IMG/VR virus record: IMGVR_UViG_3300021197_000139
Location: 1 to 20,892 of that record
Source: a virus
Direction: 5' to 3' (one strand)
DNA length: 20,892 nucleotides
This document shows, in pieces, positions 1 to 20,892 of the stretch. The first letter of the stretch is position 1. Each line of letters begins with the position of its first letter. A model generated the notes under the pieces. That model saw only the letters and a program-made list of their open reading frames with translations. It had not been told where the DNA came from and ran no database searches. The position numbers and the translations under genes are program-made.

Positions 1-2562
1 TGCTGTAGTTGGACCTGATTCTCCACCAAGCTGACGCTCAGTCTTACGACTACCCACTTCACCGCTAATTATAGCATCAAAGATGTCCTGTGGTCTAGAG
101 TATCCAGCCTTATTGGCCTTTCTCATGAGCTTCATAAGGAAGCGTTTGATCTTGCCAAAGATGTTGCGAGGTGAACCACCTATCTTCAACCTGCCAGCGG
201 CGTAGTCTCTGAACATCTCAGCAATGGCTTCTTCATCTACTTGTGATGGTGTGCCGTCCTGTTCCTTGGTTTGACTGAGGTTGCCATACAATCTCTTGGC
301 TCTGTCCAGATATGTATACTCACGCTTGGTGCCGTCTTTGTGTGCGTACTTTGTATTAGCTGCCGCCTTGGCTAGAACCTTTAGTTCCTTTGCAGTGATG
401 ACGCCTAAAGACCTGAGGGCATGAATTGTCTCATGGTTCATCACCTCAGCAACGGCCTCAAACAATTGGTCTTCGTTCATGTTGGGGTCATAAACCCCGA
501 CAGCCAAAGCTATTGTCTTCGTTGTGCCAGCAAAACTACCCTCTGCCATGCCGTCTATAAAGCCTGTTTCAGCCTCAAGCTTAACGTCACCCATGCCCAT
601 CTTGGTGAGCATCTCACGCAGTCGGTTAAACACGTTAGTTTGTTTTGGTGCAAATGAACCAAACTGACTTGGGTCTACATTGGCTTGGCCTGTTTCAGCT
701 CGTTCTTTATTTGCCCTTTGCTGATCTCTCTCTCTGGCCTCTGTCTCTTGCACAGCCTTGAATATCGCATCAGACTCAGCCCTAAGCTTGTCCCGCTCCA
801 TTTCTTTTAAGGCTAAATCAGCTTGAGCTTGATACCCTTGATCTATGGCGTCTGGCTTGTCTGGATTTATATATGTTGGCTTATCTTCTTTGGTTAGAAT
901 ATCTCTTCTCTTCATCTCCGCTATGAGTTCTTTATAGGGAGTTGTAGTGACAGATTCTTTTTTTCTTTTATTTGTTACTGTAGTTATATTGGCGTCTGGC
1001 TTTATTCCAAGCCTTCTTAATGAATCCCTGACAGCGGTGGCATTAAAGAATCCCGTTTGTTTCATAGTGTCATGAGCTGCATCAAACGCAGCTTTATTGT
1101 ATCCACCTATCTTTTGAGTTGCCTTGCTAAGATTTTTATTTTCTTGTTTTTTTCTTAGTTCTTTGCTTGGAGCCTTGGGAGCTTTTTTGCCCTTGTCAGC
1201 CAAAGCTTTTATATTGTCTACAATAACAGAGCGTCTATCACCCTTGACACCAATTCCAGCCTCTAACGCCTCTGCCCTAACATCATTAGGCATACTGCCA
1301 TTTTTATTTAATCTTAATTTAAGCTCTCTCGCTTTAGCTACTTTAGCAGCTTCTGCCAGTGTATCCACTTCAGCTTGAGCGCCTAAAGCAGCTTGTTCTT
1401 CTGGGGGTGGTGTGACCACTACGTCAGGATCAGCCACAGGATCGCCGTACAGGCCCTCTGTGGTGGCTTCTCCCTCTCTGGTGACCTTTGGTGACCTCTG
1501 GGCAGCAGCTATGCCACGATCACGCTTAATGGTGTTCTCTGCCTCAAGGGCCTCTATGTCTGCTTCTAGCTCTGCGTTTGCTTTTTGTTTTGCTTTGTCA
1601 CCGCCAACAGCAGAACCAACACCACTTATGCCACCACCAAGTATACCGCCAGCCACACCAGCCTCAATGTACTCCGCTATAGCATCGTCACTGTCTATGG
1701 AAAGGCCAGCTTGTTGACGCTCAAGCATCTGTTGACCAATTTCAGTAAGGCCTTCAGCAGCCGCGCCTTGAGTTACGCCTTTAGCTGTCCTAGTAAAAAG
1801 ACCACCAGTGCCGCCCTTAAATGCTTTTAGTAAAAGTATTTTGTTTGCAACAACCTCAAGTGCAGTTTGTCCAACAGCGTTTCTCATTGCTGTAGCAGCG
1901 TTCACTCTTGCAAGCTCACCTTTTTCTACTTGGCCTTCTTGTCTTTGAATGTTGCCACCAAAGAGAAGGGGATAAGAAGCGATGCCAGTACCTACAACTG
2001 CACCAATGCCGCCACCCACGACAGTTCCAACAGGTCCAAAAAATGAACCTAATGCGGCACCAGTTTTACCGCCAACGTATGTACCTGCTAGGCTTAGGCC
2101 TAACTGCGGTGCCTGTTCAGAAGCAAGCTCACCAACGTAACGACCAACCTTGCCATCACCTTCAGTGACATCAGACAGGGTTGTTCTGTCTACCATAGCG
2201 TCAAGCTCACTTAGACGGCCTTCAGCCTTGTCTGTAACGCCTTCGCCAAACTGTTCTATGATATCTGAGTCAAGACCCTTACCAGCGTATTCTATAGCTG
2301 TACCGCCTAAGGATTTAATTCTTTGATAACCCTGACGTAGGGCTGTGCGATATGTAGATTCGTCTAGGCCCTCAGGTATATCTACAGTCTCATTTGGTTC
2401 ACTTGCACCAAAATACTCTTGATAAATCTGAGCGTATGGGGCCTCTTGCTCAGATACATACGCATCTATACGACCCTGTTCTTCTGGCGTTGGAGTTTCG
2501 CCAGCTATTTCTACAGGATAAGGTGTTTGTGAGTACTTACCTACCGCATTAATTACAGCCAT
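1..2562 (-). CDS. Giant virion/ejection protein with zinc-metallopeptidase signature (3' end outside window)
   Basis: The reading frame is open from ATG at 2562 to the left edge: 854 codons with no stop. The start has an AAGGTG ribosome site and lies 13 bases after the stop of the upstream gene. Residues about 130-200 and 270-300 are hydrophobic and Gly-rich (glycine-zipper-like), as in phage proteins that enter or cross membranes during genome ejection. Residues 410-580 are charged and helical, with a possible winged-helix-like stretch near 490-560. Residues 710-714 read HETIH, a perfect HExxH zincin motif, followed about 60 residues later by DEEAIAEM (776-783), which could supply the third zinc ligand. 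The architecture resembles the large polyvalent or internal virion proteins of phages. The peptidase might process virion proteins, act on the cell wall, or be injected; the sequence does not say which. Domain call is firm at motif level; the biological role is inferred. Confidence 0.8.
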   Translation of the reverse strand, partial: MAVINAVGKYSQTPYPVEIAGETPTPEEQGRIDAYVSEQEAPYAQIYQEYFGASEPNETVDIPEGLDESTYRTALRQGYQRIKSLGGTAIEYAGKGLDSDIIEQFGEGVTDKAEGRLSELDAMVDRTTLSDVTEGDGKVGRYVGELASEQAPQLGLSLAGTYVGGKTGAALGSFFGPVGTVVGGGIGAVVGTGIASYPLLFGGNIQRQEGQVEKGELARVNAATAMRNAVGQTALEVVANKILLLKAFKGGTGGLFTRTAKGVTQGAAAEGLTEIGQQMLERQQAGLSIDSDDAIAEYIEAGVAGGILGGGISGVGSAVGGDKAKQKANAELEADIEALEAENTIKRDRGIAAAQRSPKVTREGEATTEGLYGDPVADPDVVVTPPPEEQAALGAQAEVDTLAEAAKVAKARELKLRLNKNGSMPNDVRAEALEAGIGVKGDRRSVIVDNIKALADKGKKAPKAPSKELRKKQENKNLSKATQKIGGYNKAAFDAAHDTMKQTGFFNATAVRDSLRRLGIKPDANITTVTNKRKKESVTTTPYKELIAEMKRRDILTKEDKPTYINPDKPDAIDQGYQAQADLALKEMERDKLRAESDAIFKAVQETEARERDQQRANKERAETGQANVDPSQFGSFAPKQTNVFNRLREMLTKMGMGDVKLEAETGFIDGMAEGSFAGTTKTIALAVGVYDPNMNEDQLFEAVAEVMNHETIHALRSLGVITAKELKVLAKAAANTKYAHKDGTKREYTYLDRAKRLYGNLSQTKEQDGTPSQVDEEAIAEMFRDYAAGRLKIGGSPRNIFGKIKRFLMKLMRKANKAGYSRPQDIFDAIISGEVGSRKTERQLGGESGPTTA

Positions 2563-2575
2563 ATTTACACCTTAT

Positions 2576-5500
2576 TTATGAAATTTTCTTTACAGGAGGT
2601 GGATTATCATATCCCAACCTTCTTGCAGCTTCTCTCTGCATTTTTATCAGATAAACAAGTTGAGCTTTATCCTCTTTGCTTATTTCATCAGGGCCACTTC
2701 CCTCAACAGAGTTTAAGAAATCAGCAGAGCTTGATGCTCCTTTTTGAGTTAACAGTCCTCTGATGTTATCAGTCGTATTGTTGTATAGGCTAACATCAGA
2801 TTTGTACCTATCTTTAGGCAAGCCAGCCTTAGCAGCGGCAGCTTCTAGACCAGCTTGGAACTTCAGTGTCTTGAGCTTCGCAGCGTCAGCAGCCTGTCGG
2901 CTCTTCATAAGTCCAGCTATGCCCACCTGACCAGCCTCACCAAGCGCACCGCCTAGTGTTGGCTGTTTGGATGACATAAGGGCCATGCCAGCGTTAGCCA
3001 GAGCCAGCCATTTATCGCTGTCTGCGTTAGCCTCTTGGCTTTTAAGTAGATCAAGGATTTGACTACTGGCACTACCACCTGTACCGCCCGTACCTTTAGA
3101 CGTTCCTTTGCTTTGTGCCGCAATTTTACGCTGTCTTTCCGCTTCATATGCTGCGCTAGATTGAGCATCTAAAGCAGCCTGTTCGTCCATTTCTGTAATA
3201 ACGCTTGATTCAGATGCATCCATCTCTTGCTGTGGGCTTCCAGCAGGTTCATCTACTGGAACAGTATTTCCTGCTTCAACTGCCTCAACTTCAGTACCTT
3301 CACCCGCTGAACCATCTGCGCTTGAAGGACCACTAAAATAATTTGGTCCAAGTCCAGCTCCAGCCGCTGCTACATCACCAATTACCTTAGCTGTTGGAAC
3401 TAATCCTTCTGCTACAATTTTTGCTGGTTGAGTACTAACCGTACCTCCCTGAGTTAAGTCAGGCTTAATTTCTGTATCGCCAAATGTATAGGGCCTAGAA
3501 GGGGCATCGTCGAGGTTCATTCCAAGGTAATTATATAGCGGTCTAGATGCCGCTTTACGCATGTCCTCTGACGCTTCAATTGTTGGACCTAGTCTTTTTC
3601 CAAGTGTCCCTTTTTGTATTTCTTGAGCTTCAGCTATTCTTTTATTAAAGGCATCACTGAAATATGAACTTCCTGGTATGTCATCAAACAAATAATTTTT
3701 AGGCTCTCCATCATCACCAAACATACGGGGGTCATCAATGAGTGCTTTTTCTTCTGCCCTTCCTCGCTTTATTGTACTTGCACGACCTCGGATGCCACCA
3801 ATCATAGGCCCATATTCACCTGTCTCTCGCATAGTGGGCTTTTCATAGTAAGGCATAGTTACACTGGGAGATTCTTCATACGTTTGTAGATTGTAACTTT
3901 GAAAAGGCGGGTTGCGCCCAGGGGTATATATATTTCCACCCCCAGCCAATACAGCTTTCGCCCCTTCAATACGATTATCTAAATATGCTTTGTCATTTTG
4001 AACATCATCATTCAAAATAGTGTCTGAACTGGCAATTGCAGCTCTGTCTGCTGCGTATGGGTCAACAATACTAAATTTTGCCTGTTCATTTGCTAGCTTT
4101 TGATCCTCATCTCCATATCCAGATGACTCGCCTGTAATCATCAAGTCATCATATCTTTTTTGCCTTTCATCATCAGCTTTATTTTTATCAAGTTGTCTTT
4201 GAATTATCTCTGAAGTGGATGGGTCATCAAAAAAGAAACCTTGCTCAGTGCCGTCATCACCCTTAGCAAAGGCACCACCTAATCCCGCATCTCTAACACC
4301 TACATCCGCTCTCAAAGCATCAGCAGCTACTTGACCGTAGTTTCCTATTGGTGCAGCACTGTCTATGGACATTTCCGTTGCATCTTTAAGTGCAATTCTT
4401 TCCGCAGCTTCTCTTTTCTGCCTATCCGCTCCAAGGTCATCAACTATTTGACTGTAATTGCCTACAGGTGCAGCGCCCTCTATAGATTGATTTGTTGCGG
4501 CTTGAAGTCTAAGACTATTCATCTCATCTTCTTTTGCCTTTAACCTCATCGCCCTAGCAACATTTTTATCAAGTTCAGGTGAGGCAAGGTTGGCATTGAA
4601 GGCCATGCCTTGACGGCCACCACTTAAAATTTCATCTATTTTGGCTTGATTAGCCATTTCATTGGATGTTCTCATCTTTGTTACAAGATCAGACTCCCGA
4701 ATGCCGCCAATCATATCTGTTGGGGCTTCCATGTTTCTTAAATAAGATTGTAGCTGGGCTTCTGCTTGCGCCTCTTTAACGGCTTCATCTTCCGCTGCCT
4801 TACGGGCAAGTTCTTCCTGCATTGTGTTGGGTGCGCCAAGGTCACCAAACATATTGGGATTGGCTTGAGCTATTGCCGCTTGTTGAAGGGCTTTGTTTTC
4901 CATTATCTGTCTAAAGCCGACAGGCTCATTGCTTCTGTCAATTTGACCCAAGGCAGTTATGGCACTGTCTCTTGCATTTTGTCTGTCAAATTCTCGTTGT
5001 TCTTCTTGCTTTGGCGTTCTTCCCTCAGCATATGCTCTGGCGTTTTCTCTAGCCTTTCTTACAGCAGCTTCTTGCTTTTCTCTCAGCTCTGCACTTATAG
5101 CAGCAGCCTCATCAGACCTAGCATCAAATGCAATCTTTTCTTGGAAAGCCTTTTCATTTTGAGCTTGCTGTAATGGTGATGCAAAGCCACTACTAGGTGG
5201 GCCTGATGTGCCTGTCGGTATAACTGCATCTGGTACAGTCTGAGCGTCAATAGAAGATTGCTTACGGGCTATTTCAGCTTCTTGTCTGCGCCTTATGCTA
5301 TCTTGAGCTAAACGATCAGATACAGCCTTTTCATAATCATCTGCCATCAAGAGGTCACCCTCTATGTCAGAATCTTGCTGAATGTCATACTCAGAAGGTT
5401 CTGCTACAGGAGCGTCCAGTGATTGCACTTCATCAATTACTTGAGATTCAGTGGGCCTACCAGCAGATGTAACAGCTTGATCATCAGTGGCACCTGTCTC

Positions 5501-6145
5501 AGCTTGAAGCTCTGCTATTCTTGCAGCTTCCTCAGCCTTTGCAATGTTTTCTTTACCCCTACGCATAGCAACATTTAGTTGAGCTGGGGCTAGTTTTGTT
5601 GCGGTCTTCTGAAATGCCTCTGGTGCGTTCTCATTGGCTATAATCTCACCACGACTACGCATACGCTTAAAGAACAACGGCATTGATGCTTCAAGCTTAG
5701 ACAAAGTATTGGCAGTGACATAACGGCGTTCACCAGCAAATATTGGACTATTCTTTGGAAACTCTAAGAAGAAGGCTTTCTCTCTTTTAGTTTTACCACC
5801 AGCAGCTAAACTTAATATGCCACCACTAGCCATAGGCATTGGTGCCTGTGGTTGTGCCTGACTTGGTGGCTGCATGTTTGGTTCAATTGAACTTTTCGGG
5901 GCCATAGCTTGAGACATCTGAGCCAGACCACCTTGAGGCACACCAGCGGCAGAAACCACTTCCTGTGCTACTGTCTTTTGATCAGCCGCACCTCTGGTCT
6001 TCATGTCATCACTTATACGCTTACGGCGCGTTATTTCACCAAGCACAAGGAATTGAGGAGCTACACCTTTCGGCTGCTTCATCTCTTGGATTAGCTGCTG
6101 CTGAGAGAAGTTCTTCAGGTCATCCTGTACTTGTAATATGTTCAT
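2576..6145 (-). CDS. 1189-residue internal virion-type protein, mostly disordered/coiled, with repeated short motifs
   Basis: The ATG at 6145 overlaps the preceding stop (ATGA, 6142-6145). No enzyme motif was recognised. Residues 1-60 are helical. Residues 75-110 are rich in Met, Pro and Gln and end in GGILSLAAGG, a motif shared in near-identical form with the protein at 7619-8941. Residues 118-176 form a more ordered block (FFLEFPKNSPIFAG onward). Residues 185-700 are Ala/Glu/Lys/Arg/Gln-rich and predicted helical or disordered. Short motifs recur: AAPVGNYSQ and AAPIGNYGQ (near 555 and 593), MIGGIR (near 477 and 780), and MFGDLG and MFGDDG (near 430 and 806). The C-terminal 150 residues contain an Ala/Gly-rich helical block (ALANAGMALMSSKQP) typical of marine podovirus internal proteins. 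Position between the AFGG protein and the zincin giant suggests an inner core or ejection component. Function is inferred from context only. Confidence 0.8.
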   Translation of the reverse strand: MNILQVQDDLKNFSQQQLIQEMKQPKGVAPQFLVLGEITRRKRISDDMKTRGAADQKTVAQEVVSAAGVPQGGLAQMSQAMAPKSSIEPNMQPPSQAQPQAPMPMASGGILSLAAGGKTKREKAFFLEFPKNSPIFAGERRYVTANTLSKLEASMPLFFKRMRSRGEIIANENAPEAFQKTATKLAPAQLNVAMRRGKENIAKAEEAARIAELQAETGATDDQAVTSAGRPTESQVIDEVQSLDAPVAEPSEYDIQQDSDIEGDLLMADDYEKAVSDRLAQDSIRRRQEAEIARKQSSIDAQTVPDAVIPTGTSGPPSSGFASPLQQAQNEKAFQEKIAFDARSDEAAAISAELREKQEAAVRKARENARAYAEGRTPKQEEQREFDRQNARDSAITALGQIDRSNEPVGFRQIMENKALQQAAIAQANPNMFGDLGAPNTMQEELARKAAEDEAVKEAQAEAQLQSYLRNMEAPTDMIGGIRESDLVTKMRTSNEMANQAKIDEILSGGRQGMAFNANLASPELDKNVARAMRLKAKEDEMNSLRLQAATNQSIEGAAPVGNYSQIVDDLGADRQKREAAERIALKDATEMSIDSAAPIGNYGQVAADALRADVGVRDAGLGGAFAKGDDGTEQGFFFDDPSTSEIIQRQLDKNKADDERQKRYDDLMITGESSGYGDEDQKLANEQAKFSIVDPYAADRAAIASSDTILNDDVQNDKAYLDNRIEGAKAVLAGGGNIYTPGRNPPFQSYNLQTYEESPSVTMPYYEKPTMRETGEYGPMIGGIRGRASTIKRGRAEEKALIDDPRMFGDDGEPKNYLFDDIPGSSYFSDAFNKRIAEAQEIQKGTLGKRLGPTIEASEDMRKAASRPLYNYLGMNLDDAPSRPYTFGDTEIKPDLTQGGTVSTQPAKIVAEGLVPTAKVIGDVAAAGAGLGPNYFSGPSSADGSAGEGTEVEAVEAGNTVPVDEPAGSPQQEMDASESSVITEMDEQAALDAQSSAAYEAERQRKIAAQSKGTSKGTGGTGGSASSQILDLLKSQEANADSDKWLALANAGMALMSSKQPTLGGALGEAGQVGIAGLMKSRQAADAAKLKTLKFQAGLEAAAAKAGLPKDRYKSDVSLYNNTTDNIRGLLTQKGASSSADFLNSVEGSGPDEISKEDKAQLVYLIKMQREAARRLGYDNPPPVKKIS
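5878..5891 (-). promoter_or_regulatory. Palindrome copy 5 (one changed end base) inside the 1189-residue gene
   Basis: In gene sense AGTTCAATTGAACC followed by AAAC, at codons 85-89 of the large gene, where it encodes Ser-Ser-Ile-Glu-Pro. An in-frame ATG follows within a few bases. The core and the AAAC flank are conserved although they are in coding sequence. Confidence 0.55.
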
Positions 6146-7185
6146 CCCATAAGCCCTTTATAGAGACCAAGACCAGATATACCTAGACCCAGTGCTTGCT
6201 GTACTGGGTTGTAAGGTGTCAAGCTTGTTGCGGTTGTACTTGGAGTGACAGGTATGCCGCGAAGAACACTTGAATAAAGACCCAACTGTTGTTCTGGGAA
6301 TGCTCTTTGCTTGAGGAAATCATCATAAGCCAAGTCAAGTCCAGCCTGATCCGCTGCCTGTCTACTTTTACCAACTGTCTCAAGATACTGAGCATCTTGT
6401 ATAGCGGCTGCTCTGGACCTGTCTTCAAGACCTGACGCAAAGTCTAATGCACCTTGTTGCCTTGTAAGGTCAGCAACCTCACCAGCTTGTATTCTGGCTG
6501 CTTCACCTGCGCTAATCCCCTGTGTACGCGCAAGCTCTGCGGCCTTCTGACGTTGCAAGTCCATCTGTGCGCCACGATCCTGCAAGAACATATTCTGAGC
6601 ATCTTGATATGCCCTTTGCTGTCCTTCAGTCTGTATGCCCACCATGCGGTCAAGAACATCATCTTGAGCCATGCCCTCCATGACACCCTGACGAGAGCCA
6701 CCAAATGCACCAGCACTTATAGCATTTGCAGACCTTCCAGCTTGCATTTGCTGAAAATCCTTTAATGCCTCAGCCTTCTGCCTACTAACAACAGCGTCCA
6801 TATACGGTGACATATATTTAGATACATTATCGCCCGTAAACTCTGTCATTGGGTCATATTCAAACTGATCAGCGGTGTATGCTTTGTACCCAGAGTAAGG
6901 ATCAGCTAAAGTTTGTGCAGACTTTACAGCAGCGTCAGTGACAGGGGTGCCATCAGCCGCAACCTGACCGATCATGTCATATGCTTTAAACACATCTGGA
7001 TCAGTCTCAGCTAACCTTTGACCTGTGTAAGGTGTATAAGGCTCCAATGACTGAGCTTCAGCTCTTGCCAAAAGACGCTCAAACTGTGGCTGAACGTAAT
7101 CTGGAAGATTTGTAGTGGTGTTCGTGCTTGTTGTAGTCACCTGTTGAGGTTGATTAGGTGCTGGACCGCCGCCGCCTTTACCCAT
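6142..7185 (-). CDS. Marine-podovirus internal/tail protein with AFGGSRQ motif
   Basis: The start chosen is ATG 7185 (MGKGGGGPAP), which overlaps the previous stop as TAATG and has GGAG just upstream. A longer reading from 7245 would run back into the coding region of the upstream gene and is unlikely. The product is 347 residues. The N-terminus is Gly/Pro-rich then Thr/Asn-rich (VTTTSTNTTTNLPDY), followed by a helical region. Near residue 155 lies SAGAFGGSRQGVMEGMAQ, a signature I recognise from abundant marine phage proteins, and then long Gln/Ala/Arg-rich helices (MQAGRSAN, AYQDAQNMF, DLTRQQG) likely to form coiled coils. A hydrophobic Gly-rich tail ends the protein. It is probably a structural protein of the internal core or the tail; no enzymatic motif is seen. 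Confidence 0.82.
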   Translation of the reverse strand: MGKGGGGPAPNQPQQVTTTSTNTTTNLPDYVQPQFERLLARAEAQSLEPYTPYTGQRLAETDPDVFKAYDMIGQVAADGTPVTDAAVKSAQTLADPYSGYKAYTADQFEYDPMTEFTGDNVSKYMSPYMDAVVSRQKAEALKDFQQMQAGRSANAISAGAFGGSRQGVMEGMAQDDVLDRMVGIQTEGQQRAYQDAQNMFLQDRGAQMDLQRQKAAELARTQGISAGEAARIQAGEVADLTRQQGALDFASGLEDRSRAAAIQDAQYLETVGKSRQAADQAGLDLAYDDFLKQRAFPEQQLGLYSSVLRGIPVTPSTTATSLTPYNPVQQALGLGISGLGLYKGLMG

Positions 7186-7622
7186 TATCCTATCTCCATC
7201 TTGTACGCTATATAGTGTGGCTTCCATCCGTATACACGAAGCCATCTATCCCAGCCTTTTCGACCATATCCCTCTAATTGGGTACAGCCATTTTCCTTAG
7301 CAAACTTTGTCATAACCTTTTGAGCCTGAGGTAACCATTCACGCATTCTAGAACCTCCGATCCAATCCATAGCCAGTGATCTACACTGAGGATATACAAC
7401 AACTCTAGTAGTTAGTGCCGCTACAACCCTGTCATCTTCCATTACGACCCAAAGGCCGTAAAGACCACTCTTAATACCGTCACGCACATCGTTCAGGTCG
7501 AACCTGCCATCAGCAGTTAATACAGACCTACGCAAAACTCTTGATACATCATTCCAGATAACTTCAACTACAGAAGTAGGTACAGCAGTTAAAACTAGAT
7601 TATCTAAAATTACGTCTTTCAT
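7185..7622 (-). CDS. GNAT-like acetyltransferase-fold virion-cluster protein
   Basis: 145 residues. The ATG overlaps the stop of the upstream gene as ATGA (7619-7622), and its own stop overlaps the next start as TAATG. The pattern of an N-terminal helix, central beta strands (GLWVVMEDDRVVAALTTRVV, about 56-75), a conserved MDWIGGSR loop (85-92), a helix, then GYGRKGWDRWLRVYGW (118-133) and a final strand fits a small GNAT fold. GRxGWxRxLxxxGW is the recurring signature of a phage protein found beside internal virion genes; T7 gp13 holds a comparable place in its cluster. The classic acetyl-CoA P-loop (Q/RxxGxG/A) is not obvious, so the protein may be a structural or degenerate GNAT and not an active acetyltransferase. 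Fold assignment is moderate; catalytic activity is unproven. Confidence 0.75.
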   Translation of the reverse strand: MKDVILDNLVLTAVPTSVVEVIWNDVSRVLRRSVLTADGRFDLNDVRDGIKSGLYGLWVVMEDDRVVAALTTRVVVYPQCRSLAMDWIGGSRMREWLPQAQKVMTKFAKENGCTQLEGYGRKGWDRWLRVYGWKPHYIAYKMEIG

Positions 7623-9242: not shown

Positions 9243-9695
9243 TCACAGCATCAGCTCAAAATGTGGAGCATCAATAAAGGGCCTACGTCCCTGTGAACGC
9301 CTTATGTCTATGTAAGAGTTCATGGCGTTTTCTGCGCTTCCTTCCCAATCACCAAGATCATCAATAGTCCAAGCCGCGCCCCAGCGTAGCTTTACATTAC
9401 ATGCAGCAGCACCTTCCTTCATGGCGTCAGCAATTTCATCGTATAGATTAAGCTCCCATCGACCACCATTGCAGTAAGCCATTAGGTCAACAGCATTGCC
9501 ATCAATGTGTTTTGACTTCATGGTTTGCGAAGCCCCTTTTGCTACTAAGGCCTTCTGCTCGTCTATCGTCCTCAGACCACAGATCACACTGAAGTCCTGC
9601 TTTGTAACGCCGATAGCGTATTTCACGACAGTTACCAGATCGTCGTTGACACCTTCTAGCCTTGATAGGCTTCGCTTTCCTAACTTGTAACCCAC
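9243..9695 (-). CDS. Endolysin, M15-family peptidase (VanY/CwlK-like)
   Basis: 150 residues starting at GTG 9695, with AGGAAGAGG about ten bases upstream. The protein is a single-domain M15 zinc peptidase. RTIDEQKALV (42-51) leads to SKHIDGNAVD (61-70), the SxHxxGxAxD zinc-binding motif with ligands H63 and D70. WGAAW (105-109) and DAPHFEL (142-148) follow, giving the third ligand H145 and an acidic residue at the catalytic position. Enzymes of this type cleave peptide bonds in the peptidoglycan stem or cross-bridge and act as phage endolysins. There is no signal peptide or transmembrane segment, so it would rely on the holin encoded just upstream (9838-10191). The length is normal for a globular phage M15 lysin with no wall-binding domain. 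Confidence 0.93.
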   Translation of the reverse strand: MGYKLGKRSLSRLEGVNDDLVTVVKYAIGVTKQDFSVICGLRTIDEQKALVAKGASQTMKSKHIDGNAVDLMAYCNGGRWELNLYDEIADAMKEGAAACNVKLRWGAAWTIDDLGDWEGSAENAMNSYIDIRRSQGRRPFIDAPHFELML

Positions 9696-15846: not shown

Positions 15847-15860
15847 GGTTCAATTGAACC
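15847..15860 (-). promoter_or_regulatory. Palindrome copy 1 (GGTTCAATTGAACC) in fibre-gene leader
   Basis: Perfect 14-bp palindrome directly at the stop codon of the 22-residue-repeat gene and 70 bases before the fibre start at 15777. In gene sense it continues with AAAC, giving the 17-bp consensus GTTCAATTGAACYAAAC found in all five copies. A sigma-70-like promoter follows it. Confidence 0.7.
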
Positions 15861-16930
15861 TAAGCAGCGATATTCGTCCAAGACGGGGTTTGTGATGGGT
15901 TTATGTTTGAGAAGTTAGAAGTTTGATTGGGTTGTATTCTTGACCAAACTAAAACACTACCCACTCCTGCCGTGCCAGAAACGCCCGTGACAGAAACGGG
16001 GTTGTCAACTTTAGAGGCTATTGAACCAACAGAAGTGGTGGAAGAAACGCCTGTGACGGATACATCTACATCAACGGTAACTGTAGGCGATCCTATCGCA
16101 CCTGTACCAGAAACGCCTGTAACTGATAGATTGCTGTCTGCAGTAATTGAAGTGGTGCCAATACTTCCTGTAGCTGCTACGCCTGTAACTGATACAGGGT
16201 TGTCAACTTTAGTAGATAAAGAACCAACCGCACTCGTAGCCGCAACACCTGTAACCGATATATCGGCTGAAGAAGTAGTCGTTGCGGAACCAACCACACC
16301 CGTGGATGAAACTCCCGTTACAGAAACATTTGCGTCACCACTAACACCGCCGCCACCCACAAAAAGACCGTCAGTAAACGCTATAAGGGCTTCTCCCATT
16401 ATAGCGGGAATTCTGGAATTAGTGTTAAGGGATACGCTCCCTACTGCGCCTGTCCCCGCTACACCTGTAACTGATATAACTGAGCTACTTGTGGTAGATG
16501 CGCTTCCTACTGCGCCCGTTCCTGCAACTCCTGTAACATGCTGTCTAAATTCTGTGGTTACAGAACCAGCAGAGCCTGTCCCTGACACGCCCGTAACAGA
16601 AAGATTGGATTCACTTGTAATGGACGAGGAACCTACAGACCCCGTGGCAGCAATGCCTGTAACACCTACATCTAAGTCGGTAGAAGATGCCACTCCGCCT
16701 ACTTCACCTGTGCCAGAGACACCCGTGATAGTGACAGTTGCAAAACCCGTTATGGTTACAGAACCAACACCGCCTGTTGCTCCAACACCTGTTACGGATA
16801 TGTCAGTCGCGCTTGTAGTAGTGACAGAGCCAACCGCCCCCGTAACAGCAACCCCCGTAACAGCAACTGATGCAGAAACACTGCCAGAACTAGCAAGAGG
16901 CGCTCCAGCGAGGGGGGAAAAACCAAGCAC
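15860..16930 (-). CDS. Surface protein of thirteen 22-residue VTGV..TG.VGS repeats
   Basis: 356 residues starting at GTG 16930 in a TAGTG overlap; stop TAG 15860-15862 shares its G with palindrome copy 15847-15860. The body is tandem repeats with consensus SVTGVSGTGAVGS plus nine variable residues: seven copies, then a non-repetitive insert of about 35 residues (RIPAIMGEALIAFTDGLF, then VGGGG), then six copies. The C-terminal 35 residues are Asn/Gln/Trp-rich (PNQTSNFSNINPSQTPSW), like termini of other marine phage virion proteins. Ser/Thr/Gly/Val-rich strands suggest a beta-solenoid or Ig-like fibre. It sits between the first chaperone-like gene and the second fibre gene, so a virion fibre or decoration role is likely, though unproven. 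The opposite strand is open by repeat geometry alone. Confidence 0.8.
   Translation of the reverse strand: MLGFSPLAGAPLASSGSVSASVAVTGVAVTGAVGSVTTTSATDISVTGVGATGGVGSVTITGFATVTITGVSGTGEVGGVASSTDLDVGVTGIAATGSVGSSSITSESNLSVTGVSGTGSAGSVTTEFRQHVTGVAGTGAVGSASTTSSSVISVTGVAGTGAVGSVSLNTNSRIPAIMGEALIAFTDGLFVGGGGVSGDANVSVTGVSSTGVVGSATTTSSADISVTGVAATSAVGSLSTKVDNPVSVTGVAATGSIGTTSITADSNLSVTGVSGTGAIGSPTVTVDVDVSVTGVSSTTSVGSIASKVDNPVSVTGVSGTAGVGSVLVWSRIQPNQTSNFSNINPSQTPSWTNIAA
15960..16875 (-). repeat. Tandem 66-bp repeats encoding 22-residue units
   Basis: Thirteen imperfect units encode V/SVTGVxxTGxVGS plus about nine variable residues. They are split seven plus six by a unique insert near 16330-16420. Codons differ between units, so amplification is not very recent. 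Confidence 0.85.
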
Positions 16931-17295
16931 TAGCTAGGTTCCGTGGGCCACGTAACGCTGCTTGGGAAGCCAGCTTGTGAAGGTACATCACGCAGTGCCT
17001 GTCGGTACGTGCGCCACTCGGTTGACATTGTAACGTCGGTTGAGGCACGCCAATCAGTAGCAGCTAATTCAGCGTTCCTTGCACCTCTAATCCTAGATGC
17101 TTTTTCTTCATCCGTTGAAAAATCTACTACTGAACCAGAACCGTCAGAATTAATTACATTGTAGTTGTTATTAAGAGAAGTCAGCCATTGCTCGTGTGTC
17201 AACTCAATGTTCGGTGTAGGTATAGTATCATGTAGGTCATCAGTATAATAACCTAGAAGACGATTGTTGGGACCTATGTGAGCATAATATTTCAA
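16930..17295 (-). CDS. Tail-fibre assembly chaperone-like protein (copy 1)
   Basis: 121 residues starting at TTG 17295, three bases after the previous stop; AGGAT about ten bases upstream can serve as ribosome site and no in-frame ATG is near. The N-terminal part reads KYYAHIGPNNRLLGYYTDD, a small domain common in tail-fibre assembly-type proteins. The C-terminal part contains RGARNAELAATDWRAS, then WRTYRQALRDVPSQAGFP and TWPTEP, the same Trp/Tyr-Arg and GFP/TWP signature as at 14063-14479. It follows the gp53-like tip protein and the YadA-like fibres, so it may help fold those adhesins. Confidence 0.78.
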   Translation of the reverse strand: MKYYAHIGPNNRLLGYYTDDLHDTIPTPNIELTHEQWLTSLNNNYNVINSDGSGSVVDFSTDEEKASRIRGARNAELAATDWRASTDVTMSTEWRTYRQALRDVPSQAGFPSSVTWPTEPS

Positions 17296-17994: not shown

Positions 17995-18400
17995 TTAAGC
18001 ATAAGTGACTTCCGCTGTTTGGATGTTCGCCACCCACCTGATATTGTGTGATGCTTCGCCCGTTACGGTAACAGCCAATGCATTATTTGTGTTGTCGGCA
18101 CTTAAAGCTAGGCCCCACGAACTTGAATTATTTATGACCGTGATTGCGCTGGTAGGTACTGTTGTAGTCCCGCCATCATTGACTAAAAGCCCTTTAATCT
18201 CCCAGCTACCGTATGCTTGAGCGCCATTTTGCATAGCAACGACTGTGCCACTAAAGGTGATGCACGTATCCGTAGCAGCTACAATTTGATTTGTTGCTGC
18301 GGCTGTAGAATTGTTAGTTGTCATAGCCTCAGCCGTGGCATCTGTGGTGTCAGAAAGTAAAACAAATGTACCACCTTGAGCATCGCCAATAGCATTAAAT
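17995..18400 (-). repeat. Fibre C-terminal domain, paralogous copy B
   Basis: Encodes the approximately 130-residue C-terminal domain of the second fibre; it matches the 3' end of the first fibre (19885-20290) at protein level almost throughout, with a small length difference after the NDGGTT motif and many silent base changes. Confidence 0.8.
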
Positions 18401-19884
18401 TTTTTACCGCTGTGCGCTAGTTTTCCGTGAACTGCTGATGACGCACCCTGACCTAGTGCAATAGACGCCTCTTGGGATGCTGTGCATTCGTTGCCCATTC
18501 CAATAGAATAAGTATTAGAAGAGGTAATCAAACGCCCCAACGCAAAACTATTGTACCCTGAAGCGGTAGAAGAATTTCCCCCTAAAATAACGGATTGGCT
18601 TCCTGAAGCTGTTTGCGCCCAACCTATTGCTACAGCATAGGAGTTAGAAGCCTTTGATGACGCTCCCATAGCAATACTGCTAGTGCCACTAGCCCCGTAG
18701 CTTGCTGAGTTGGTGCCAATACCAAATCCTACACTATTTGAACCCGAAGCAAGGCTGGCTGGCCCTGATATTGCCTGTGCTGCAGATGAAACAGAATTAT
18801 ACCCTGCAGCCATTGAGCTAACGCCCGATGCCGTACTTTGCTGTCCTATTGCAGTGGACTCTAGTGCAGAGGCAGCACTGCCTTTCCCAATAGAAATAGA
18901 CCCAGAACCACCCGCTGCGGCACCATCTCCTATGGCTACCCCATTAGCCCCTGCAGCCGTAGGGTTTGTAGCAGAACTAGGATTAGCAATATAAAGATCA
19001 GCAGAGGGAGAAGCACCACCGCCAGCCGCTGCGAAAGAAACCACTCCAGAACCGTTTGTGGTAAGAACTTGGTTAGCACTACCGTCAGCCGTAGGAAGCG
19101 TGTACGTTTCTGAAATTCGTACAGTATCCGCTGTACCGCCTAGATTAATTTGATTTACGGCTGTTGATTGTACGCTATCACCGATAGAAACCGAATTATT
19201 ATGTGATGCTGTGCTGCCATCACCCATCGCAACGCTATGATCGCCAGAAGCTGTATTATTCTGACCCCCAAGAACCGTTGAATAATCGCCACTGGAATTA
19301 TTAGCACGGCCCCCAATAACCGCCGCACCACGACTACTAGTCGCAGTGCTTTGCCACCCAATACAAATGCTATTATCAAAACCACTCGCAACAGTTTCCC
19401 CTCCAATAGCTATAGAGTTTTGAGTGGTCGCTTTTGCTTGATAGCCCATCGCAATAGCGCCAGTGCCAGTAGCCCCGTAGCTACTTGAGTTGTTATCTAT
19501 AGTTGCTGCGAAACTGTCTTCACCAGAGGCGTAGGATTTACCTAGCGAAACTGCCGCTGTGCCGTAGCCTCTTGAATATGACCCCATAGCAACAGCTTGG
19601 AGAGAATTAGCCAAAGCCTGATAGCCCATCGCAACACTGTCAATGCCACTTGCGACTGATTTTTGACCAAACGAAAAAGAATTTACGCCACTAGCGGTGC
19701 TTTCGTCCCCTATCGCTACGGAGTTGTTAGCACTAGCCACAGGAGTAGTTGCACCAGAAGCGTTGTCTCTATATAACGCTGGATCACCCCCAACAGCACT
19801 ACCACCTAGTAAAAGATCAGTGCCGTCAGAACTAAGGACAACACCCCCACCAGACCCTGTGTGATTAATTTCTATCTGTCCCAT
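17995..19884 (-). CDS. Large adhesin-like tail fibre with two YadA-like head-repeat arrays
   Basis: 629 residues. ATG 19884 follows directly on the previous TAA. Residues 1-45 (IEINHTGSGGGVVLSSDG) are a fibre-type start. Array 1 (about 48-245) is built of 14-residue YadA-head/Hep_Hag repeats (pattern GxxSxAxGxxAxA, e.g. SVAMGYQALANS). A hinge with YTLPTADGSANQVLTTNGSG (about 258-280) follows, then array 2 (about 300-485). The C-terminal domain (about 500-629, from DAQGGTFVLLSDTTDA to IQTAEVTYA) is nearly the same as in the upstream neighbour. Left-handed beta-roll heads of this kind bind surfaces in trimeric autotransporter adhesins; here they form a phage fibre. There is no signal peptide or outer-membrane anchor, which excludes a bacterial autotransporter. 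Confidence 0.88.
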   Translation of the reverse strand: MGQIEINHTGSGGGVVLSSDGTDLLLGGSAVGGDPALYRDNASGATTPVASANNSVAIGDESTASGVNSFSFGQKSVASGIDSVAMGYQALANSLQAVAMGSYSRGYGTAAVSLGKSYASGEDSFAATIDNNSSSYGATGTGAIAMGYQAKATTQNSIAIGGETVASGFDNSICIGWQSTATSSRGAAVIGGRANNSSGDYSTVLGGQNNTASGDHSVAMGDGSTASHNNSVSIGDSVQSTAVNQINLGGTADTVRISETYTLPTADGSANQVLTTNGSGVVSFAAAGGGASPSADLYIANPSSATNPTAAGANGVAIGDGAAAGGSGSISIGKGSAASALESTAIGQQSTASGVSSMAAGYNSVSSAAQAISGPASLASGSNSVGFGIGTNSASYGASGTSSIAMGASSKASNSYAVAIGWAQTASGSQSVILGGNSSTASGYNSFALGRLITSSNTYSIGMGNECTASQEASIALGQGASSAVHGKLAHSGKKFNAIGDAQGGTFVLLSDTTDATAEAMTTNNSTAAATNQIVAATDTCITFSGTVVAMQNGAQAYGSWEIKGLLVNDGGTTTVPTSAITVINNSSSWGLALSADNTNNALAVTVTGEASHNIRWVANIQTAEVTYA

Positions 19885-20290
19885 TTAAGCGTATGTGACC
19901 TCCGCTGTTTGTACGTTAGCTACCCAACGAATGTTATGACTAGCCTCGCCTGTAACTTGTATTTTTAAAGCGTTGTTCGTGTTGTCTGCACTTAATGCCA
20001 CCGCCCAGCTAGAGGCGTTTGTAGCAGCCATATCAGACACGTTACCAAGGGCTAAACTTGTGGTGCCGCCATCATTAACCAACATACCTTTAATCTCCCA
20101 ACCACCATAGGCTTGCGCCCCGTTTTGCATCGCAGTGATGGTGCCGTGGAATGTAATACAGGTGTCTGATGCGGCTACGATTTGGTTAGTGCTTCCAGCG
20201 GTGCTGTTATTAGTAGTCATAGCTTCAGCCGTTGCGTCAGTAGTATCAGACCTCAAAACAAACTGACCGCCTTGGGCATCTCCTCTTGCT
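19885..20290 (-). repeat. Fibre C-terminal domain, paralogous copy A
   Basis: Encodes the C-terminal domain of the first (window-edge) fibre, the partner of 17995-18400. Both copies end in the same AEVTYA residues and a TAA stop. Confidence 0.8.
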
Positions 20291-20892
20291 GCAAATTTTC
20301 CAGATGCTCTTGCAACTTTACCAATCTGAGCAGAAACAGCCTCACCACCAGAAGCAAAAGAATATGTGCCTGTAGCTTGTGTATCAAATCCTCCTATAAC
20401 AGCGGAATATTGTCCTGACGCTACGTTAGTAGTGCCACCCACTACTGTTGCATAAGTAGAACTTGCTGTGTTTGTACGTCCACCAAAAACACCAGAATAA
20501 TTTGCTGATGCCGTGCTAACGTAACTACCTACTACTGTTGAATAACTTGCAGATGCTGTATTTTGTTTGCCTAAAGAAAGTGAACCATATCCAGATGCTT
20601 TTGCATTTGGACCTATCGCCACAGAGTGATCACCAGTAGCCCCATAGGAACTTGTGTTGTTGTCTATAGCCGCTGCAAAAGAATACTGACCACTGGCATA
20701 GCTCTTTGTTAAGGCTGTTGCCCCGAACGCTGTATTAGCTTGAGCGTTGTATCCGATAGCAACAGCAAAGGCGTGACTTGCAACAGTACCACTACCGATA
20801 GCAATACTTTGACTTGCACTGCTTGTTGAATTTGGCCCGATAGCCACGGCATTACTACCAGTGGCAGAAGGCGCAGTAGGACTGTCTGGGTT
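19885..20892 (-). CDS. Adhesin-like tail fibre with YadA-like head repeats (5' end outside window)
   Basis: The frame is open to the right edge (335 codons visible); an internal GTG at 20847 is not a likely start because coding continues upstream with NPDSPTAPSATGSNAVAIG, which resembles the beginning of array 2 in the next fibre. About 190 residues of 14-residue head repeats are visible (ASYSTVVGSYVSTAS, TYATVVGGTTNVAS), followed by the shared C-terminal domain from DAQGGQFVLRSDTTDA to VQTAEVTYA. TAA 19885-19887 abuts the next ATG. Most residues of the C-terminal domain agree with the 17995-19884 fibre, while the head arrays differ. This suggests duplication followed by divergence of the exposed shaft. 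Confidence 0.85.
   Translation of the reverse strand, partial: NPDSPTAPSATGSNAVAIGPNSTSSASQSIAIGSGTVASHAFAVAIGYNAQANTAFGATALTKSYASGQYSFAAAIDNNTSSYGATGDHSVAIGPNAKASGYGSLSLGKQNTASASYSTVVGSYVSTASANYSGVFGGRTNTASSTYATVVGGTTNVASGQYSAVIGGFDTQATGTYSFASGGEAVSAQIGKVARASGKFAARGDAQGGQFVLRSDTTDATAEAMTTNNSTAGSTNQIVAASDTCITFHGTITAMQNGAQAYGGWEIKGMLVNDGGTTSLALGNVSDMAATNASSWAVALSADNTNNALKIQVTGEASHNIRWVANVQTAEVTYA

Follow-up and report, generated by a model that had tools for sequence, protein, structure and literature searches.

The virus record analysed here (IMGVR_UViG_3300021197_000139; the window is the complete record of 20,892 nucleotides) is cut off inside a gene for a giant protein with an HExxH zinc-peptidase signature, and the question that this raises is what a metallopeptidase would do in such a protein. 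An earlier note on this DNA had described the protein as a giant of the ejection type and had offered three roles for the putative enzyme: opening the cell wall, processing core proteins or acting on host targets.

Results

A truncated giant gene and its full-length relative

The 5' part of a giant polyvalent-protein gene occupies positions 1..2562 on the minus strand. The open reading frame starts with an ATG at 2562, encodes the first 854 residues and is stop-free up to the contig end at position 1; the 3' part lies beyond that end and hence outside the window. The remainder of the gene, which the earlier note had wanted, was supplied by a relative: a domain-profile scan of a genome collection returned one locus with 99% identity over 225 query residues, on contig NYWV01000005.1 (L030; a Porticoccaceae MAG by its title). 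Gene order is common to L030 and the window (in L030, ORFs of 150, 438, 145, 344 and 1155 amino acids, then the giant), and in L030 the whole giant gene is a single ORF of 3069 amino acids (L030:7114-16323). Residues 2755-2941 of this protein match LPD38 (PF18857; Pfam, E 9.7e-36), which is a mark of phage "polyvalent" proteins. Judging by its relatives, the window phage is probably marine and podovirus-like.

General family searches were of little help. With the whole window protein as the query, Pfam and PHROGs did not recognise the metallopeptidase domain and returned just weak glycine-zipper-type and chance-level matches, and phage records gave nothing at E <= 1. NCBIfam had no match for the giants of L030 or L005 (a further relative) and one, far under the cut-off, for that of L007.

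Conservation of the motif residues

The two motifs lie exactly where the earlier note had placed them, HETIH at residues 710-714 (421..435, minus strand) and DEEAIAEM at residues 776-783, and HExxH occurs just once in the window protein. Scans of viral contigs yielded 9, then 19 and then the best 80 of 223 loci (tblastn-confirmed, repeats included); the last 80 together with L012-L030 make up a set of 99 loci, in which the same contigs recur. HExxH together with EEA(I/V/L)A was present in 98 of these 99 loci, and in the sole miss, L033, the contig runs out ahead of the second motif. Because the scan behind most loci used two patterns, one per motif, retrieval could be separated from conservation for one of them: in 72 of 99 domains (98 loci plus the window), only the EEA pattern was matched, so that HExxH was not a condition of their retrieval. 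Among 50 domains that are less than 90% identical to one another, the window's included, H710, E711, H714, E777, E778, A779 and A781 are invariant (50/50), the EEA residues being partly a retrieval condition. The homologues thus keep the motif, the loss of which in relatives the earlier note had named as evidence against its claim.

Conservation also narrows down the second motif. Within EEAIA (residues 777-781; 220..234, minus strand), both E777 and E778 stand as proposed, whereas E782, the last glutamate of DEEAIAEM, is variable, some relatives having H, K or D at this position. From conservation and the predicted fold (below), H710, H714 and E778 would bind zinc, with E778 as the likely third ligand, and E711 would act as the general base that activates water.

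Sequence and profile searches of the PDB gave nothing meaningful for the domain (residues 636-834; 61..657, minus strand). A Pfam search with 18 members returned 21 families at E <= 1, and MPTase-PolyVal (PF18818) was absent from them; this family was also matched in none of six records in a search that carries little weight, since its positive control was matched in no genome either. Weak Pfam matches to Mu gp27, M13 and SprT-like families fell under the cut-offs and were left unused.

HExxH in proteins found through the N-terminal domain

A test independent of the motif was provided by the N-terminal 340 residues. A profile of this region (A7) picked up 329 relatives, and the analysis went on with the best 80; removal of 19 loci that have no stop within the locus left 61, and removal of 14 near-duplicates left 47 ORFs, the starts of which were taken unchecked. 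HExxH was present in 45 of these 47 non-redundant ORFs, compared with a mean of 0.3 of 47 in shuffled copies, a control that covered HExxH only; the motif is therefore far more frequent than expected by chance. All 45 also have ExxA/S within 130 residues of HExxH, which is a weak condition by itself. The two exceptions are frame-broken records: in L174 HExxH sits in the next, overlapping ORF, and in L129 the frame is broken at the motif itself. We considered the L174 split, which falls just before the metallopeptidase domain, as a possible sign of a processing site but discarded this reading, since the overlap of the two ORFs falls in a charged stretch beside an A-rich run and the relative L147 reads straight through, as fits a simple frame break.

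Two types of motif were found behind this one N-terminal domain. The window's type, [ND]HExxH, occurs in 12 proteins at positions 641-874, and an [LM]HExxH type occurs in 33 proteins at positions 858-1338. It hence seems that the peptidase module was exchanged or else diverged strongly. Profile comparison of the window's type with L003/L004 and with L006/L010 gave probabilities of 8.7% and 4.6%, respectively, on two-sequence alignments. We also noticed that in L003, L004, L006 and L010, as in 33 of the 47 proteins, the motif has the form [LMI]HExxHA and that in those read it is followed later by EFxAE or EFxSE.

Predicted fold

A first model, built from 18 sequences (A2), was poor (pLDDT 65.0), and its fold matches were at chance level, with no zincin among the rows shown. 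It was replaced by an AlphaFold model of residues 636-834 based on the 50-sequence alignment (A4), with a pLDDT of 87.2 and a pTM of 0.83. In this model, the HExxH residues lie within helix 62-83 (window residues 697-718) and EEAIA, including E777 and E778, within helix 139-153 (window residues 774-788). DSSP assigns an N-terminal helix (4-19) and, before the HExxH helix, two strands rather than three (40-43 and 48-51). The earlier note had called for a structure prediction and regarded motif residues that do not meet as evidence against a zincin; the predicted model places them on the two helices expected in such a fold.

Foldseek found no match for the A4 model in the PDB at E <= 0.001 (the lethal-factor row had E 5.4). 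We ranked Foldseek's 525 candidates with VIA-align, in which the best were anthrax lethal factor entries (Z up to 6.8, 134 residues, rmsd 3.5), followed by PPEP-3 (9g0j, Z 4.9) and IrrE (3dte, Z 4.7), with the first plainly unrelated row at Z 3.4; all of these Z scores are below 8, a range in which, according to the tool, a match may reflect no more than a common arrangement. Among the top 25 rows, three lethal-factor alignments (rows 17, 18 and 23) fall on chain residues 50-270, outside the catalytic domain, and not on 590-778. With these modest Z scores, the nearest solved folds of the model are HExxH metallopeptidases; they have no meaningful sequence match to the domain and an unrelated biology, and are neighbours in fold only. 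The best-matching viral model (E 2e-4) was that of a large polyvalent protein from an uncultured Caudovirales phage.

The alignment to IrrE ends at model position 155 and IrrE position 125. Carrying the offset over from the ends of the aligned range, and not from a superposition, IrrE Glu113 would fall on model position 143, which is window E778. In the available text on IrrE, Glu113 is a zinc ligand together with His82 and His86 (PMC5552922).

Taken together, conservation, the test through the N-terminal domain, the predicted model and the fold comparison bear out the claim of a metallopeptidase domain in the giant: residues 636-834 very probably form a zincin-like domain, and there is a good chance, somewhat lower, that the predicted enzyme is catalytically active.

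Architecture of the giants

LPD38 was found in nine of ten giants scanned (L030, L005, L006, L007, L009, L010, L015, L024 and L031), the tenth, L003, having LPD39 in its place. ADP-ribosyltransferase-type cargo (ART-PolyVal, ART) is matched in L007 and L009, and GNAT, methylase and helicase matches are present in L031. Pieces of the L030 giant were used as queries against the 99 giants, a set that includes incomplete proteins and repeats (35 are whole) and was chosen through the zincin, so that the 97 matches of the zincin itself (33 of the 35 whole giants) arise by construction. Residues 1-340 matched 73 of the 99 giants (27 of the 35 whole ones), whereas residues 341-630 matched two (one whole). 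Behind the zincin, matches were found in 23 giants for residues 850-1160 (8 whole), in 27 for 1160-1400 (6 whole), in 59 for 1400-2140 (17 whole) and in 65 for 2145-3069 (22 whole). In the window, the piece that is so rarely shared corresponds to a variable charged linker (residues 341-635; 658..1542, minus strand). The zincin domain is the best-kept part of the window's 854 residues in comparison with L002: identity is 98% at residues 651-700, and the preceding bins of 50 residues have 34-90%. The zincin is flanked by a conserved N-terminal domain on one side and by variable cargo on the other, a placement that fits a processing enzyme in a protein with exchangeable cargo.

Two further features of the cargo region deserve mention in their own right. 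Directly after the zincin, at about residues 928-1165 of the L030 giant (about L030:9895-10608), is a strongly conserved module, NDxFRxVHDxFGH ... ExxAxxxH ... SETxGQNS. Giants of Synechococcus phage MinM2, Microcystis phage Mel-JY33 and Podoviridae ctQRb9 that differ in their other parts share it at 44-56% identity, and it recurs with 26% identity in a stand-alone 433-amino-acid protein of Mycobacterium phage Flabslab; 187 of its 200 matching records are Mycobacterium phages. The module has no Pfam match, residues 1073-1131 match phrog_3170 (unknown function), and it looks like a mobile cargo of the metal-enzyme type. Further downstream, at about residues 1160-1300, the L030 giant has a GHEGRxR-type motif that is reminiscent of ParB-like domains but has no database match; HEGRH is also found in L013, L015, L016 and L017.

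The N-terminal domain and the neighbouring genes

The N-terminal domain (residues 1-340; 1543..2562, minus strand) is Gly/Ala-rich and membrane-like. The earlier description of a Gly-rich, membrane-like first third was roughly right, in that the Gly/Ala-rich parts lie near residues 155-200 and 295-325 and a glycine-zipper-like stretch at residues 160-196 (1975..2085, minus strand) matches PF13488 below the cut-off (E 0.0012) and, over residues 160-192, phrog_6922 (E 1.9e-05). Its relatives match virion structural proteins. Over this domain, L005 gives a match to phrog_6958 ("virion structural protein") with E 3.6e-24 and L003 one with E 1.5e-08, whereas the window protein itself gives none. 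Residues 54-153 of L005 match proteins of 96 phage records (94 named Pseudomonas and 2 Bruynoghevirus), and many of the 30 listed among them are annotated as virion structural or particle proteins. One of these relatives, gp48 of Bruynoghevirus TL, is a virion structural protein with an N-terminal domain akin to those of L005 (E 9e-13) and L002 (E 7e-07) in a nine-sequence comparison; it differs from the giants in being much shorter (1055 amino acids) and in having neither HExxH nor a Pfam match. Since the window chain itself matches gp48 with just E 0.49 in that comparison, the link to virion proteins runs through relatives.

The neighbouring genes described here all lie on the minus strand. 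Just upstream in the same cassette is a 1189-amino-acid protein (2576..6145), for which neither Pfam nor PHROGs gave a match at E <= 1 and which is possibly an internal virion protein, going by its position. Next to it lies a DNA-ejection-type protein (6142..7245; phrog_4287, "DNA ejection protein," E 7.9e-15). The cassette also has a cell-wall enzyme of its own, an M15-like endolysin (9243..9695; phrog_465, E 1.6e-46; Peptidase_M15_4, E 9.7e-05, below the cut-off). Beside the ejection-type gene, at 7185-7622, lies a 145-amino-acid protein with weak PHROG matches (phrog_22172, E 1.7e-05); as a guess, it could be acetyltransferase-like.

Elsewhere on the minus strand of the window, we noted two adjacent fibre-type ORFs (17995-20892) with repeated "AVAIG"-type units, presumably like those of trimeric autotransporter heads; their C-terminal parts are very similar, which suggests duplicated tail-fibre genes. 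A low-complexity ORF at 15860-16930 consists of "SVTGVxxTGxVGS"-type repeats, and the opposite strand is open there too (336 amino acids, 15927-16937), probably as a by-product of the repeats.

Discussion

The domain described here is a member of the zincin-like metallopeptidase (MPTase) class of phage polyvalent proteins, as judged by its motif, its second glutamate and its architecture. In the accessible text of the survey by Iyer et al. 2017 (PMC5512222), zincin domains are the most common domain of polyvalent proteins. As in that class, HExxH lies on the first C-terminal helix and a glutamate on the second, both of which are found in the window domain. The class is further marked by large proteins with other polyvalent domains, as seen in the LPD38 of L030 and the ART of L007 and L009, the window itself being without that part of the gene. 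Of the three-stranded sheet and N-terminal helix of the class, the model has the helix and two DSSP strands, and its best fold neighbours are zincins. The nearest fold is again of the lethal-factor type, as the survey's available text reports for the domain of coliphage N4. What sets the domain apart is that it belongs to a subfamily unrecognised by the Pfam MPTase-PolyVal model, with a signature of its own, [ND]HExxH ... EEA(I/V)A, in most members; it represents a new branch within a type of phage protein whose description, in 2017, was by prediction.

A close case from a phage with a named host is the 3912-amino-acid giant of Ruegeria phage 45A6 (ANH49087.1). In a search of phage records, the domain alone found this phage only, at E 0.2, and the relative L026 found the same phage at E 9e-17. 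It resembles the giants described here in that its zincin (at residue 2856) is related to theirs, has an EEAIA motif and precedes LPD38, and it is matched by the zincin and the C-terminal parts of L030; it differs in the late position of the zincin within the chain, where matches to helicase, methylase and GNAT come before it. The phage record includes a putative integrase gene. Two other giants are of interest with regard to the virion. In the text available on Burkholderia phage JC1, gp69, a 4515-amino-acid LPD38 protein of a podovirus and in this respect like the L030 type of giant, was detected in CsCl-purified virions with 51 unique peptides; it differs in having lytic-transglycosylase-like, helicase-type and LPD3 domains, and a zincin is not among the domains listed there (PMC9144972). 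The virion RNA polymerase (vRNAP) of N4 resembles the window's protein as a giant ejected protein that includes an HExxH domain (C1) and whose large C-terminal part is mostly helical, but it carries an RNA polymerase; the likeness is taken from the description in the accessible text (PMC12633501). The relatives in phrog_6958 and TL gp48, the presence of JC1 gp69 in virions and the ejection-type neighbour make ejection of the giant likely. Along with the LPD38 of L030, this speaks for the ejection-type protein proposed in the earlier note, and, going by these relatives, we consider it probable that the giant is carried in the virion.

What the zincin would cut is less clear, and the three roles proposed for it fared differently. 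HExxH zincins, as a rule, cut proteins. Opening of peptidoglycan for DNA entry is highly improbable: neither the window protein nor that of L030 has an M15 or M23 Pfam match at E <= 1, the solved folds closest to the model belong to protein endopeptidases and a separate M15-like endolysin is encoded in the cassette, although the lytic-transglycosylase-like domain of JC1 gp69 (in the available text, PMC9144972) indicates that wall-opening cargo does occur among LPD38 giants. A more serious, though still doubtful, alternative, which comes second in our ranking, is that the domain acts as an injected effector protease whose early targets are one or a few proteins of the host, for instance, defence or regulatory proteins, and not the giant. 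The fold neighbour IrrE cuts a specific protein in trans, the repressor DdrO according to the text available, the cargo found next to the zincin in relatives (ART, GNAT, methylase and helicase) is of the effector type and the option is listed in the accessible parts of Iyer et al. 2017 (PMC5512222). However, 45 of 47 proteins that share the N-terminal domain have HExxH, of at least two types, behind it, and for a motif this close to universal, a general processing role is a simpler explanation than a single host target.

It is also conceivable, but unlikely, that the zincin fold has been kept as a structural part of an ejection protein, with no protease role that matters. In support of this, the available text of Iyer et al. 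2017 (PMC5512222) describes the MPTase region of the N4 vRNAP as needed for encapsidation and the protein as packaged unprocessed; in addition, the related virion protein TL gp48 is entirely without HExxH. A scaffold would not need E711 and both histidines, though, which are invariant in 50 of 50 domains. The same parts of the survey propose processing of the giant chain as the role of polyvalent MPTases and cite P1 DdrB, which is processed before packaging (PMC5512222). Against self-processing stand, besides the unprocessed N4 vRNAP, the plasmid MPTase proteins, which according to the same text are transferred at full length. Of the roles offered in the earlier note, processing of core proteins fits best, and self-processing is to us the most likely main role of the zincin, at slightly short of even odds.

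Our best explanation as a whole, with a probability of roughly 50%, is a virion-carried giant with a zinc endopeptidase that mainly cuts the giant itself. Going by its N-terminal and C-terminal relatives, the giant would travel in the virion and enter the host alongside the DNA. The zincin would cut the giant, in cis or in trans, within the variable linkers beside it, and this cleavage, in the capsid or after entry, would set the N-terminal, membrane-type region free from both LPD38 and the enzymatic cargo. Our searches found no cleavage product, site or activity for any member of the subfamily and no experiment on the activity of polyvalent zincin domains in the literature covered, most subscription papers lying outside it.

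The zincin subfamily is widespread, with 223 tblastn-confirmed stretches of viral contigs (repeats included). Since it stands behind an N-terminal domain akin to virion proteins and is present in Ruegeria phage 45A6, a phage with a named host, self-processing of ejected giants is directly testable. A broader and more tentative possibility is that these giants are akin to viral polyproteins, in which the conserved, membrane-type ejection domain at the N-terminus and LPD38 at the C-terminal side frame an exchangeable cargo and a near-obligatory zincin, of at least two exchangeable types, frees that cargo after the envelope has been crossed. If this were true, a single ejected chain would give rise to several independent early effectors.
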